A stretch of 64,000 bases of DNA from Victivallis vadensis (lineage in GTDB: Bacteria; Verrucomicrobiota; Lentisphaeria; Victivallales; Victivallaceae), in assembly GCF_003096415.1 (NCBI RefSeq), contig NZ_QEKH01000004.1:62001-126000 (forward strand), in the 5' to 3' direction. A program made the translations under genes and the position numbers. Of the stretch, positions 2,667-30,440 are shown piece by piece. The notes beneath the pieces were generated by a model that saw nothing but the letters and a program-made list of their open reading frames with translations, searched no databases and was not told where the DNA came from. Position 1 is the first letter of the stretch. Each line of letters starts with the position of its first letter.

Positions 2667-4682
2667 TTACTGTTCCTCGGCGGATTCCGCCTGATGTTTT
2701 GCGGAGATTTCGGCCGCGAGATTCGGCGGAACCGGTTCGTAACGCACGAAGTTCATATCGAAGGAGCCGCGCCCCTGCGTCATGCTGCGCAGTTCGGTGG
2801 CGTACTTGTGCATTTCGGCCAGCGGGACTTCCGCCTGAACGACCTGCATGCCCTCCTCCACCTCCATCCCGAGGATGCGGCCGCGCTTGTGGTTCAGATC
2901 GCCGGTGATGTCGCCCATGTAGGTATCGGGGATATGGATATTCACGCGCATGATCGGCTCCAGCAACACCGGGCTGGCCTTGCCCATCGCCTCCTTGAAC
3001 GCCATGCGCCCGGCGATGCGGAACGCCATTTCGTTGGAGTCGACCGGATGGTACTTGCCGTCGTACACGGAAACCCTGACCCGTTCGACCGGACAGCCGA
3101 CCAGCGGCCCGCGTTCGAGCATGTCGTTGATCCCCTTTTCCACCGCCGGAATGAAGTTCTTCGGAATCGCTCCGCCGACCACGTCGTTGGAAAACTCGTA
3201 ACCGGAATCGTTGTAGGAGATTTTCAGGCTGACTTCGGCGAACTGCCCGGCGCCGCCGGTCTGCTTTTTATGGCGGTAATGGCCGTCGCCCGCGCCGGTG
3301 ATGGTTTCACGGTAGGGCACGCGCGGCGTGGAGAGCACCGCCTCGACCTTGAACTGGTCCTTGAGCCGCTTCGCGACGATCGCCAGCTGCTGGTCGCCCA
3401 TGCCGGAGAGCAGCACTTCGTGGGTCTGCTCGTCGCGCCCGAGCCGGACGGTCGGAATGCACTCGATGATCTTGTGCAGCCCGGCGGCGATCTTCTCGTC
3501 GTCGCCGGATTTCTGCGCCGAAACCGCATAGGACATCACGGGGGCGGGGAACGTGATTCCCGGCAGCGCCTTTTCATTCTGGTTCGCCGAAATGGTGTCG
3601 CCGACGTGGGTGTCCTTGAGTTTGGCGATCGCAAAAATGCTGCCCGGCCCGGCCTCGTGAACGGCGGTCTGGCTCTTGCCGTTCATGAAGAACATCGAGC
3701 CGATGCGCTCCTTCACGCCGGGACGCGAGAGGTTCCAGACGTCGGAATCCCCCTTGAAAATGCCGGAAACCACCCTTACGAAAGTAAGCTGGCCGATAAA
3801 CGGGTCATTGATGCTCTTAAAGACGATGCCGATCGCGTCGGCGTCTTCGCTGATCTTGCGCTTGGCGCCGTCGACGGTCACGTAGCTGAGCGGAGTCGGG
3901 AAAAGCTCGATGATCGCATCCATCAGTTCGGTGATGCCGACATCTTTGACCGAGCTGCCCGCGAATACCGGAATCGTATGGCCGAGCTTGATCGACTTCT
4001 TGAGGCCCGCGAGCACCTCCTCGTCGCCGAGCTGTTCGCCGTCGAGGTAACGCATCATCAGTTCGTCGTCGGTTTCGGCGATCGCGTCGAGCCACAACCC
4101 GCGGCATTCGGCGACGTCGTCGGCGATTTCCGCCGGAATATCCCTGTCGAAAAGCACGTTCACCACGCGGTTGAACGAGTCGCCCGAACCGACCGGCCAG
4201 TAAAGGGGGATGATCACCGATCTGCCGTGGTTGCCGCGCATCACTTCGAGAGTCGCCTTGAAGTCGGCGCGCTCCTTGTCGAGGCGGTTCACCAGAGCGA
4301 AGCGGGGAATCCGGCGCTCCTTGGTCATCTTCCAGGCGCGGGCGGTGCCGACCTGCGGGCCGTCGATCGCGTCGATCACCACCAGCGCGGCGTCGGCGGC
4401 GCGGACGGCGGCGGCGGCCTGTCCGATGAATTCGCCGTATCCGGGAGTGTCCACGAAAAAGAACTGATTGTTTTTCCACATGCAGTTCATGCACGTGGAG
4501 TAGATGCTCGCGCGCCGTTCCTGCTCGTCCGCCATGAAGTCGGAGACGGTGTTCTTCGCGTCGACCGTTCCGGGGCGGCCGATGGCGCCCGCCTTGTAGA
4601 GCATCAGTTCGGAGAGGGTGCTTTTGCCGCTGCCGGCGTGGCCCGCGATCACGAAATTCCTGCACTCGGTTGCTCTGGTCAT
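2667..4682 (-). CDS. Elongation factor G-like translational GTPase
   Basis: 671 residues, close to EF-G length. The P-loop is AGHAGSGKST (residues 13-22), G3 is DTPGY (78-82) and G4 is NRLD (133-136) instead of the canonical NKxD. The switch I region reads DEQERRASI (52-60) where true EF-G has E-R-G-I-T-I, as seen in the EF-G-2 type paralogues. EF-G domains II-V follow, with a domain IV-like VPYRETITG near residue 460. A clear SD (AAGGGGA) precedes the ATG. It stands alone without rpsL, rpsG or tuf, so it is probably a paralogue rather than the main translocase. Its role is uncertain; EF-G-2 proteins bind ribosomes but their task is not settled. Confidence 0.85.
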   Translation of the reverse strand: MTRATECRNFVIAGHAGSGKSTLSELMLYKAGAIGRPGTVDAKNTVSDFMADEQERRASIYSTCMNCMWKNNQFFFVDTPGYGEFIGQAAAAVRAADAALVVIDAIDGPQVGTARAWKMTKERRIPRFALVNRLDKERADFKATLEVMRGNHGRSVIIPLYWPVGSGDSFNRVVNVLFDRDIPAEIADDVAECRGLWLDAIAETDDELMMRYLDGEQLGDEEVLAGLKKSIKLGHTIPVFAGSSVKDVGITELMDAIIELFPTPLSYVTVDGAKRKISEDADAIGIVFKSINDPFIGQLTFVRVVSGIFKGDSDVWNLSRPGVKERIGSMFFMNGKSQTAVHEAGPGSIFAIAKLKDTHVGDTISANQNEKALPGITFPAPVMSYAVSAQKSGDDEKIAAGLHKIIECIPTVRLGRDEQTHEVLLSGMGDQQLAIVAKRLKDQFKVEAVLSTPRVPYRETITGAGDGHYRHKKQTGGAGQFAEVSLKISYNDSGYEFSNDVVGGAIPKNFIPAVEKGINDMLERGPLVGCPVERVRVSVYDGKYHPVDSNEMAFRIAGRMAFKEAMGKASPVLLEPIMRVNIHIPDTYMGDITGDLNHKRGRILGMEVEEGMQVVQAEVPLAEMHKYATELRSMTQGRGSFDMNFVRYEPVPPNLAAEISAKHQAESAEEQ

Positions 4683-4751
4683 ATGATTCCCCTTCTTTAT
4701 GTTGAAAGTTGAACTATGAAACTTGAACCTCGGTATCAGCTCCTGATATGG

Positions 4752-4780
4752 ATAATAGCACCGCCGTTTTCGTTTTGCAA
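4752..4780 (-). promoter_or_regulatory. Predicted sigma70 promoter for the EF-G-like gene
   Basis: On the minus strand, TTGCAA and TATTAT are separated by 17 nt, about 70 nt upstream of the EF-G-like start. It abuts the plus-strand promoter at 4782. Confidence 0.5.
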
Positions 4781-4781
4781 G

Positions 4782-4809
4782 TGGACAATTCCGGTTTTCG
4801 CACTATATT
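4782..4809 (+). promoter_or_regulatory. Predicted sigma70 promoter for the DUF218 gene
   Basis: TGGACA and TATATT with a 16-nt spacer, divergent from the promoter at 4752-4780. The leader to the ATG at 4935 is about 120 nt; nothing structured was recognised in it. Confidence 0.45.
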
Positions 4810-4934
4810 TAACAGGAATCTTCCCGCACAACCATCAACTCGGAGGCAGAAATGCTGCTCAACTTACAGTCAGGCATATCGCGGAATGCCGAAGCAAGCC
4901 GTATCACTTTCCGCCCGCAATCACCGCGAATGCC

Positions 4935-27496: not shown

Positions 27497-28492
27497 ATGG
27501 CCCTGGTTCGTCACCCTTCCAATCCGGTCCTTTCGGCGAAGGACATCCCGTTCGACGCGTCGCTGATCTTCAACGCGGGCGTCTGCAAATTCAACGGACG
27601 CTATGTGATGGTGTTCCGGAACGACGTCGGCTTCGGCCCGAACGGCTACGGCAAAACCTACACCAACCTCGGTATCGCCTACAGCAGCGACGGCGTGAAA
27701 TGGGAAGTCCAGCCCCGGCCGTGGAAAGTCGCCGCCGATATCGTCGCCGCCGACCCGGAACTCAGCCGCTTCTACGACCCGCGCCTGACGGTGATCGACG
27801 GCCGCTGCTATCTCTGCTTCGCGGTGGACACCATGCACGGCGTGCGCGGCGGCATCGCGGTCACGGACGACTTCGACCACTTTGAAGTGCTGTCGATGTC
27901 CGCCCCCGACAACCGCAACATGGTGCTGTTCCCCGAAAAGTTCGACGGCAAATTCGTACGCCTCGAACGCCCCTTCCCCGAATACAGCCGCGGCTATCAG
28001 GAGAAGTTCGACATCTGGTCGAGCATGTCCCCCGACTGCCGCTACTGGGGCGACACCCGGCTGGTCCTCGGCATGGAGGACGTCCCCTACGCCAACGCCA
28101 AAATCGGCCCCGCCGCGCCGCCGATCAAGACTCCGAAAGGCTGGCTCTGCACCTTCCACGCCACCTACAAGGACATGAGCCGCAATCTCTTCGGCTGGGA
28201 AAACGCCAACAATCCCGACGTCACCTGGAACAAGGAGTACTTCGGCGGCCTGATGCTGCTCGCTCTCGACGACCCGCAGAAAGTGATCGGCCTCGCCCCC
28301 GAACCTCTTCTCAAAGCCACCGAAAAGTATGAACTCGAAGGTTTCCGCGGCAGCGTGATCTTCCCCGGCGGCATGCTGCTCGAAGACGACGGCGAAGTCA
28401 AGATCTATTACGGCGGCGCCGACACCGTCGAGTGTCTCGCCACCGCCTCGGTCGACGACCTCCTCGCCCTGATCAAACCCTTCTCCCGCTGA
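27497..28492 (+). CDS. GH130 family glycoside phosphorylase
   Basis: 331 residues with SD AAGGA. The five-bladed propeller of GH130 is indicated by HPSNPVLSAKDIPFDASLIFNAGVCKF at the N-terminus, YVMVFRNDVGFG, a Tyr-Asp-Pro-Arg (YDPRLTVID) near 95 with the family's catalytic-type Asp, KIGPAAPPIKTPKGWLCTFHAT near 195, and GGMLLEDDGEVKIYYGGADT near 295. GH130 enzymes phosphorolyse beta-mannosidic bonds such as Man-beta-1,4-Glc or mannobiose, giving mannose 1-phosphate in the cytoplasm. Exact substrate is undecided. Likely repressed through the palindrome at 27448. Confidence 0.85.
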   Translation: MALVRHPSNPVLSAKDIPFDASLIFNAGVCKFNGRYVMVFRNDVGFGPNGYGKTYTNLGIAYSSDGVKWEVQPRPWKVAADIVAADPELSRFYDPRLTVIDGRCYLCFAVDTMHGVRGGIAVTDDFDHFEVLSMSAPDNRNMVLFPEKFDGKFVRLERPFPEYSRGYQEKFDIWSSMSPDCRYWGDTRLVLGMEDVPYANAKIGPAAPPIKTPKGWLCTFHATYKDMSRNLFGWENANNPDVTWNKEYFGGLMLLALDDPQKVIGLAPEPLLKATEKYELEGFRGSVIFPGGMLLEDDGEVKIYYGGADTVECLATASVDDLLALIKPFSR

Positions 28493-28495
28493 CCT

Positions 28496-28760
28496 CCGGG
28501 ATTTCGCTCCTTTCGGAGCGACCAAGGCGCTTCGCCCTTGGAACCCGACCGGCAAGGTGCCGGTGCCGAATACTTGAGAGCCGGGAAAACCGTTCCGGTT
28601 TTCCCTCCGGGTGGGGGAACTCTGATGGAGACAGGCAAGGAGCGTACAGGAGCGGCACACCGCTCCGGTCGGCGCAAAGCCTGCTTTTTTGCAGGCTTTA
28701 GGCACTCCCTGCGCCTGCTGCCGCCGGAGGCCACGCGCGGAACGGCCAGATGCTGACCGG
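28496..28760 (+). repeat. Left arm of a 717-bp nested inverted repeat
   Basis: 265 nt that match the reverse complement of 28947-29212. The outer ~97 nt differ at one base. Further in, two internal hairpins keep their pairing while their sequence changes: 28583-28605 (stem GGGAAAACCG) and 28676-28699 (stem AAAGCCTGC, T6 loop). The outermost part contains CCAAGGCGCTTCGCCCTTGG and GCTCC/GGAGC palindromes. Starts 4 nt after the GH130 stop. Confidence 0.85.
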
Positions 28761-28946
28761 GTAATAGACAGATACCCTGATGGAGGCTGATAAGAGTTTA
28801 TCTGCCGATATACGAAAGGCGAGGTCAGGCAACAATACAATTACCATATCACAGGCAAGCATATCTTTGAGTACGAGCCTTACTGAACCTTACCTGTATA
28901 AAAAGGTAGGGAGAGTTCAGCCTCCATGAGTGTAACTTCACATCAT
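28761..28946. other. Central spacer of the nested inverted repeat
   Basis: 186 nt without a coding frame. It holds its own nested pairing: TGGAGGCTGA (28781-28790) with TCAGCCTCCA (28917-28926), GATAA/TTATC (28789-28802), and CTGAAC/GTTCAG (28883-28888, 28915-28920) enclosing ACCT/AGGT. The pairings partly exclude each other, so alternative folds are possible. Confidence 0.5.
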
Positions 28947-29212
28947 CCGGTCAGCATCTGGAGGTTCCGCGCGTGACCTCCGGCGGCAGCAGGTGCAGGG
29001 AGTGCCCGGCGTCGGCAAAAAAGCCGACGCGGTCGCCGACCGGAGCGGTGTGCCGCTCAGGTACCCGCCTGCCTGTCCACAGTAGAGCCTCCCCTCCCCG
29101 GAGGGAAAGGCGGTACGCCTTTCCCGGCTCTCAAGTATTCGGCGCCGGCACCTTGCCGGTCGGGTTCCAAGGGCGAAGCGCCTTGGTCGCTCCGAAAGGA
29201 GCGAAATCCCGG
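28947..29212 (-). repeat. Right arm of the nested inverted repeat
   Basis: 266 nt, inverted relative to 28496-28760. The hairpins corresponding to those of the left arm are at 29103-29125 (stem GGGAAAGGCG) and 29009-29030 (stem GCGTCGGC, A6 loop on this strand). Their stems differ in sequence from the left arm but pair perfectly, so base changes are compensated. Confidence 0.85.
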
Positions 29213-29281: not shown

Positions 29282-29364
29282 TTGACATTTTCTCTTTTTT
29301 CGGTCATAATATAACAGAAATTGCATCTTAAAACAATGCAATTTTTTATTTCAACCAATTGCAT
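29282..29364 (+). promoter_or_regulatory. Promoter with AATTGCAT operator repeats before a GntR/LacI-type gene
   Basis: TTGACA (29282-29287) and CATAAT (29305-29310) are 17 nt apart. Just downstream AAATTGCAT (29318-29326) and ATGCAATTT (29336-29344) form an inverted repeat, and a third AATTGCAT is at 29357-29364. The arrangement suggests autorepression by the regulator encoded at 29382. Confidence 0.6.
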
Positions 29365-29381: not shown

Positions 29382-30440
29382 ATGAATAAAACCAGTAAAT
29401 CGGATCAACTGTACCGGCTGCTGCTGGAAAGAATTTCCCGGCTTTCGGACGGCGACAACTTTCCCACGCTGCGTGAGATCATGAGGGAATACCGTGTCAG
29501 CCAGTTCACCGCGGCTCCGGCCCTGAAGCGGTTGCAGGAGAAGGGGTTGATCGCGTCGCATGTCGGGCGCGGCAGCGTCGTCACCCGCACGGCCGGGCGC
29601 AGGCACGGGGCCACGATCCTCTATCTGCGCCCCGACTGGCCCTCGTTTTCCATTCAGGCGATGGAGGAAGCGATGACCGGCGAAGCGGCCGCGCGGGGAT
29701 ACCATTGTGAAATCCTGCGATACGATATTGCGGCGGACATCTACCGGCAGCTTCCCGGTTTCGAGGCGGATGCGGTGATTCTCGACCCGATTCAATTCGA
29801 CCACTTCACCGCCGAACAGCTCCAGATCCTGACCAGTTCGGTGCGGCCGGTGGTGCTCTGCCGTTCGACGCTGCCGGTATTCAATATCAAATGCGTCGGT
29901 TCCCACCTGATGGAAACCGGCATCACCGCCGCCAATTACTTATACCGCAATGGACACCGCAAAATCGGCGTCCTCTTCAGCGAAGGGCGCTCCTACACGA
30001 TGACCACCGTGGTCGACACGCTGCTGCTGTGCGCCCGGACCCTCGGCTGCGAAGTGACGGTGCTCGACGCGAACATCCGGCGCGGAGTCGATTCCTGCCG
30101 CCAGACCCGGGAGTTTCTGGAACGGGAGTTCAAGCCGGATTTCACCGCGCTTTTCGTATGCAGCTACGCGACCGCCCGCGAAACCCTCGCCTTCCTGCGC
30201 TCGCGCGACGTCGCCGTACCGGAGGAACTCAGTCTGCTCAGCTACGGTTTCGACACGGTGCCGGACGAAGCGCCGTTCATCAGTTCCGTGGATGCGCCGC
30301 TCCCCAGACAGGCGAAGGCGGTGCTGGACATCATCGACCACCAGCTTTCCGGCGATCTCTCCTTTCCGGGGCAGATCAATATCCCCCCGGAAATCCGTGA
30401 ATACCAGAGTGTACAACATTTATCGGGAAACATCCTATGA
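29382..30440 (+). CDS. GntR-type DNA-binding plus LacI-like sensor regulator
   Basis: 352 residues. Residues ~1-70 are a winged helix of the GntR type (YRLLLERISRL, FPTLREIMREYRVSQFTAAPALKRLQEKGLI, GRGSVV). Residues ~75-335 are a periplasmic-binding-protein-like sensor (GATILYLRPDWP, ADAVILDPIQF, AANYLYRNGHRKIGVLF, VPEELSLLSYGF, FISSVDAPLPRQ), the same fusion as in the arabinose regulator AraR. It overlaps the FAD oxidoreductase gene by 4 nt and heads that operon, so it is its probable regulator. The AATTGCAT repeats in its leader are the likely operator. Confidence 0.85.
   Translation: MNKTSKSDQLYRLLLERISRLSDGDNFPTLREIMREYRVSQFTAAPALKRLQEKGLIASHVGRGSVVTRTAGRRHGATILYLRPDWPSFSIQAMEEAMTGEAAARGYHCEILRYDIAADIYRQLPGFEADAVILDPIQFDHFTAEQLQILTSSVRPVVLCRSTLPVFNIKCVGSHLMETGITAANYLYRNGHRKIGVLFSEGRSYTMTTVVDTLLLCARTLGCEVTVLDANIRRGVDSCRQTREFLEREFKPDFTALFVCSYATARETLAFLRSRDVAVPEELSLLSYGFDTVPDEAPFISSVDAPLPRQAKAVLDIIDHQLSGDLSFPGQINIPPEIREYQSVQHLSGNIL

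Follow-up and report, generated by a model that had tools for sequence, protein, structure and literature searches.

The window analyzed here is a 64,000-nt stretch of the Victivallis vadensis genome, in which a 717-bp inverted repeat at positions 28496-29212 lies between a glycoside hydrolase gene and a gene for a GntR-type regulator (Table 1). The repeat is real and far above chance expectation. Its nested arms of 124, 37 and 108 nt are 94, 89 and 82% complementary, and the single strand of the element folded at -582 kcal/mol as RNA (shuffled sequences, -285 +/- 8; z -37) and at -342 as DNA (shuffled, -135; z -42). The nested arms and the folding scores bear out the description of 28496-28760 and 28947-29212 as inverted arms with further nested pairs, which was made in a first-pass annotation of the locus. 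The statement that the outer ~97 nt of the arms differ at one base holds for the outer 93 nt, while over 97 nt there are three differences. Likewise, the two hairpins said to have changed on both sides of the stem are present as quoted, and their pairing is kept inside each local hairpin and not from arm to arm; the arms mismatch each other at these hairpins. A convincing coding frame is absent from the element, as had been noted, and the open reading frames of 72-113 aa that are present cross the palindrome.

Table 1. Features of the window copy and its neighbours (positions in the window).
Feature	Position	Strand	Remarks
Upstream gene, glycoside hydrolase family 130 (GH130)	27497..28492	+	Pfam PF04041; stop codon ends 5 bp ahead of the element
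Whole fold-back element, window copy 713 bp	28498..29210	.	Ends GGGATTTCG / CGAAATCCC; boundaries common to 34 copies; folding z -37
Left terminal three-hairpin unit	28498..28568	+	Model R1, 90.7 bits
Hairpin H1, CGCTCC-TTTC-GGAGCG	28505..28520	+	Other copies with alternative stems
Hairpin H2, CCAAGG...CCTTGG	28522..28541	+	Other copies with alternative GCAGGG...CCCTGC
Hairpin H3, CCGGC-AAGGT-GCCGG	28549..28563	+	Invariant among full copies of the V. vadensis genome; covaries across the order
Hairpin H4, allele GGGAAAACCG-TTC-CGGTTTTCCC	28583..28605	+	
T6-loop hairpin, AAAGCCTGC-TTTTTT-GCAGGCTTT	28676..28699	+	In L037-L039 a ~130-bp hairpin module takes the place of part of it
Element centre	28770..28940	.	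Size class of ~800-905 bp with part of the centre duplicated
T6 hairpin counterpart, right arm	29009..29030	-	+ strand reads GCGTCGGC-AAAAAA-GCCGACGC
H4 counterpart, right arm	29103..29125	-	+ strand reads GGGAAAGGCG-GTA-CGCCTTTCCC
Right terminal three-hairpin unit, inverted	29140..29210	-	Model R1, 90.2 bits
Promoter-like site TTGACA-17-CATAAT, outside the element, before the downstream gene	29282..29310	+	Consensus match only
Downstream gene, GntR-type regulator with periplasmic-binding domain	29382..30440	+	Pfam PF00392, PF13377

Copies, terminal units and their place at gene ends

The V. vadensis genome (5.2 Mb, 87 contigs) contains 34 full-length copies of the element, 655-961 bp long and bounded by GGGATTTCG and CGAAATCCC or a close variant, together with truncated copies and fragments at contig ends. 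The main size class comprises 24 copies of 655-721 bp with a mean pairwise identity of 88%; the ten larger copies measure 796-961 bp, and in seven of them the centre is partly duplicated. Three of the ten (L037-L039) have a ~130-bp hairpin module in place of a portion of one T6 hairpin or of both. This module was also seen by itself and as a tandem of three partial copies spaced 178 bp apart (G000:C37:31698-31815 and C9:91671-92116). A search with the end-hairpin pattern gave 104 matches in the genome, a few of which look like chance, versus 0 for the control read backwards, and single and tandem three-hairpin units occur too. The many copies at differing sites agree with the earlier suggestion of a dispersed, non-autonomous fold-back element. 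We did not find the full element in congeners. Phage and plasmid records held no sequence related to it, and the exact degenerate pattern of the terminal unit had no match in viral contigs, on which grounds a phage or plasmid origin was rejected.

The unit at each end of the element is ~70 nt long with the layout ATTTCG-H1-CGACCA-H2-TGGA-(linker)-H3. Of 195 genomes of the phylum searched with the covariance model R1, 19 carry it, all belonging to the order of V. vadensis (families f1, f2 and f4), with at least 21 copies in several genomes of the order; these counts are lower bounds, as up to 26 candidates were scored per genome under strict filters. A search of 84,980 species with the exact degenerate pattern gave matches in five contigs, every one from Lentisphaerota. 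The architecture is shared by two genomes (G053 and G058), where related units form the ends of an inverted pair of ~200 bp whose interior differs. Near gene ends in L155 (G005:C8:157000-165000; 3050-4900) and L140 (G026:C1; 1500-2250), the unit is contained in hairpin repeats arranged as long, non-coding tandem arrays, with periods of ~536-552 bp and 223 bp. In L193 (CASFXO010000137.1; 326-1416), two direct ~122-nt repeats bearing the unit flank a pair that, on reading the sequence, we named as AbrB-like/Doc-like toxin-antitoxin. Integron attC sites were considered in view of this pair and of the units following stop codons, and were rejected: no attC-like boxes were seen by eye, and the arrays other than L193, being non-coding tandem repeats, further weaken this reading.

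According to crude gene calling, 22 of the 34 copies in V. vadensis lie between convergent genes and two lie between 5′ ends, and most of the remainder are located behind at least one gene, with the stop codon mostly within ~50 bp. In 60 of 79 cases in other genomes, again by crude gene calling, the gene 3′ of the unit was encoded on the opposite strand. We examined the GH130 orthologues of four congeners, which have 82-87% protein identity. None of the four has the element after the gene, and at least three of these loci have a terminator-like hairpin directly after the stop codon. There is a strong GC-rich hairpin in G005, G002 and G003, followed in G005 by a T run, and a hairpin-like AAAAAAGGGC...GCCCTTTTTT was read by eye in G001. 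To the right of the window copy, synteny with the relatives is lost, and we therefore claim no exact empty site. The location behind stop codons, along with the hairpins at the orthologous position, suggests that the element replaces a two-way terminator or, alternatively, that it is tolerated owing to landing at terminator sites. For the element itself, evidence of a classical intrinsic terminator was not obtained: a T-tract is missing after the outer hairpins, and a terminator scan of the region found 2 versus 1.5 expected, which is no excess.

Covariation within the hairpins

To assess covariation we used a unit alignment of 74 distinct sequences from outside the V. vadensis genome, which was fitted to the model and leans toward structure, although a first, unfitted set agrees. 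In this alignment 95.6% of the cells were paired versus 77% in shuffled alignments, both-sided changes were present in 176 cells versus 53, and the covariation score was 0.378 versus 0.129 when shuffled and at most 0.072 when slid. The covariation pointed out in the first-pass annotation is genuine.

RNA helices are expected to tolerate G-U pairs more than A-C pairs. Among copies of the V. vadensis genome there were 3 G-T and 11 A-C in 1848 cells, and across the order 18 G-T and 8 A-C in 1040 cells, with 11 of the 18 G-T at one boundary pair. In a small control comprising five tRNAs from the same loci, we counted 11 G-T and 0 A-C in 110 cells. Neither orientation of the element or unit showed an enrichment of G-T relative to A-C such as the tRNAs have. 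Furthermore, the loops of H4 occur in both orientations, on one stem as TTC (19) and GAA (8) and on the other as TTT (10) and AAA (4), TAC (6) and GTA (1), and GCA (5) and TGC (3). Whole-stem alleles recur among many copies, and between arms as well as between copies the hairpin alleles for the most part assort freely. The alleles of H4 and T6 are independent between arms (p = 0.20 and 0.46) and along the arm; those of H2 are associated between arms (p = 0.007) and also with H1, which is itself borderline between arms (p = 0.057). Compensation from arm to arm was rejected on the independence of H4 and T6, with the H2 association and the borderline H1 value noted alongside.

Template switching in replication can create multi-base compensatory changes in stems (PMC8794818) and can invert spacers (PMC8604942). 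We infer that DNA template switching, together with exchange between copies, fits the hairpin pattern better than RNA selection does, as the short local hairpins, the free assortment, the flipped loops and a G-T frequency no higher than that of A-C favour maintenance at the DNA level. The conservation of the hairpins across the order could include some selection. A large structured RNA or a 3′-untranslated RNA element selected for its fold would be in keeping with the strong covariation across the order and with the constant location behind stop codons, including the opposite-strand genes 3′ of the unit. However, the G-T counts depart from those of tRNAs, the palindromic element looks alike on both strands, its loops flip and no Rfam family matches it, and we consider such an RNA improbable. 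With G-T as rare as A-C, loops flipped and alleles shuffled, the covariation does not support a large selected RNA, one of the two kinds of selected structure proposed in the first-pass annotation, and the RNA interpretation of the element is weakened.

The Acido-Lenti-1 RNA motif has been reported from Lentisphaerota and had been named as the family to compare. Rfam, Acido-Lenti-1 included, gave no match at the gathering threshold, nor at E <= 5 for the window copy or E <= 1 for the other loci. Acido-Lenti-1 and the other Rfam families were rejected on this result, which is also consistent with the annotation's remark that no described family fits with certainty.

Terminal inverted repeats and modes of movement

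The 17-bp sequence ACGCCGTGTGCAAGTTT, with small variations, is found on both sides of L004, L031, L032, L034 and L038 and on one side of L003, L014, L015, L016, L033 and L036. It is also present at both ends of a multicopy insertion sequence (IS), of which it forms the outer end and which is broken at contig ends. A C-terminal peptide of this IS matches positions 215-243 of 243 of an IS982 transposase (E 3.4e-4), an identification that covers only 29 C-terminal residues. The interior of the IS was not found in the assembly, and the IS982 family search gave only one weak match, in C14; therefore the interior is probably collapsed or absent in the assembly. The C14 transposase gene (G000:C14:148-366, L184), located near a contig end, is weakly IS982-like by model at 23 bits, below the 130-bit cut-off; the terminal inverted repeats (TIRs) are absent around it in the stretch seen. 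Ends of the multicopy IS982-like IS were observed at G000:C35:1-184, C49:1-185, C60:1-184 and other contig ends, and its insertions adjoin AT-rich TTATTATA-like sequence.

Perfect 6-bp target duplications were identified for forms of 854 bp (GAAATA), 113 bp (CAATAC), 98 bp (ATATTC) and 43 bp (ATTTTC), and a fifth (GGATTC) was read by eye at a ~80-bp element. The shortened forms of 43-113 bp end in the 17-bp inverted repeats, and the short TIR-bounded forms retain parts of GGGATTTCG...CGAAATCCC; most simply, they are internal deletions between repeated hairpin arms of the same element. The TIR-bearing subset agrees with what is described for type II MITEs (PMC10969869). Roughly two in three copies, including the window copy, are without the 17-bp TIRs and end exactly at GGGATTTCG/CGAAATCCC. 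At the GGGATTTCG ends of these copies we found no target duplication beyond chance, with one 5-bp match versus 0.93 in shuffles. Given these exact ends and the absence of duplication, IS transposition does not explain the TIR-less copies. Decay of the TIRs should leave ragged ends, none of which were seen, and a second process that sets the boundaries of these copies therefore seems needed.

Several rival explanations may be considered. The inverted pair of hairpin-bearing ends, their precision without target duplication and the many extragenic copies would all agree with a REPIN- or BIME-like repeat whose ends GGGATTTCG are cleaved by a Y1 (HUH) transposase recognising hairpins in single-stranded DNA. 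However, the Y1 transposase (PF01797) is absent from the V. vadensis genome and from five further unit-bearing genomes (draft genomes in which the gene could be missed, and another enzyme could act), it is present in three congeners where the unit was not found, no unit adjoins the four Y1 genes examined in other genomes, and across 17 genomes the presence of Y1 does not track that of the unit. We regard action of such an enzyme as improbable here, and a RAYT/REPIN system in the strict sense was rejected on the absence of the gene and of any association elsewhere. It is also doubtful that the core element inserts at the dyad centre of pre-existing palindromes such as bidirectional terminators: one copy (L022; 1475-1501, 2215-2241) interrupts, at its centre, a 27-bp palindrome that has A/T tails, a second (L010) splits a shorter one and the TIR-bearing copies are located between the arms of a palindrome, but the splitting is clear in only 2 of 29 non-TIR copies, and no TIR palindrome was found without the core, so the arms of the TIR palindrome are probably part of the element. 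L022 looks as though a bidirectional terminator was the target. A fixed, non-mobile site of the host, either a terminator or one for chromosome organisation, that selection had amplified would account for the near-uniform location behind stop codons; it is very unlikely in view of the target duplications on TIR-bearing forms and the lack of the full element in congeners and at the four orthologous loci. Tentatively, a lineage-specific structure-recognising system in Lentisphaerota, neither HUH/RAYT nor classic DDE, might move unit-bounded DNA to sites behind stop codons and leave no target duplication. If this is true, such a mover would give REPIN-like elements of a new kind.

Relation to known repeats and proposed origin

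Type II MITEs share only their terminal inverted repeats with an autonomous IS (PMC10969869). The TIR-bearing subset resembles them in being non-coding and intergenic, with the TIRs of a resident IS, target duplications and tens of copies. However, type II MITEs are typically < 500 bp and AT-rich, whereas the element measures 0.65-0.96 kb with 60% GC, has nested multi-hairpin arms and is without TIRs in most copies. With REPINs and BIMEs (REP doublets; PMC3116915), the element shares many copies, an extragenic location and an inverted pair of hairpin units, the last two being features by which REPs and REPINs are recognised. It differs from them in a unit of three hairpins (~70 nt), an interior of ~570 bp rich in hairpins and no detected association with Y1/RAYT. 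ERIC, Correia and similar sequences are intergenic palindromes, some of them at gene 3′ ends and affecting transcripts (PMC10969869); the element is like them in the first two respects and is set apart by description, being much longer and having swappable hairpin blocks. It can be described as a multi-hairpin fold-back element of very large size whose architecture is REPIN-like and of which one part behaves as a type II MITE. We found nothing on such repeats in Lentisphaerota in the open-access literature, and this family of mobile multi-hairpin DNA at gene ends across a Lentisphaerota order appears to be unreported.

The dispersal of the element, its site preference, its common ends and the subset with TIRs and 6-bp duplications are direct observations. 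The reading we favour, at a probability of roughly two in three, is that the window repeat represents one copy of a mobile fold-back element of Lentisphaerota, neither coding nor autonomous, that spread behind stop codons. Its ends are inverted copies of the three-hairpin unit and its interior is a stack of further hairpins, and the copies have reached sites where terminators are usually located. An IS982-like transposase may move the TIR-bearing subset in trans, while template switching and exchange between copies would repair and swap whole stems, being the main means by which the hairpins stay paired, and the element may serve in place of a two-way transcription end. This would be a naturally occurring example of covariation of the textbook type, usually taken to prove a functional RNA, for which DNA template switching and exchange among copies are the better explanation, and automated searches for RNA motifs could misread such families as ncRNAs.
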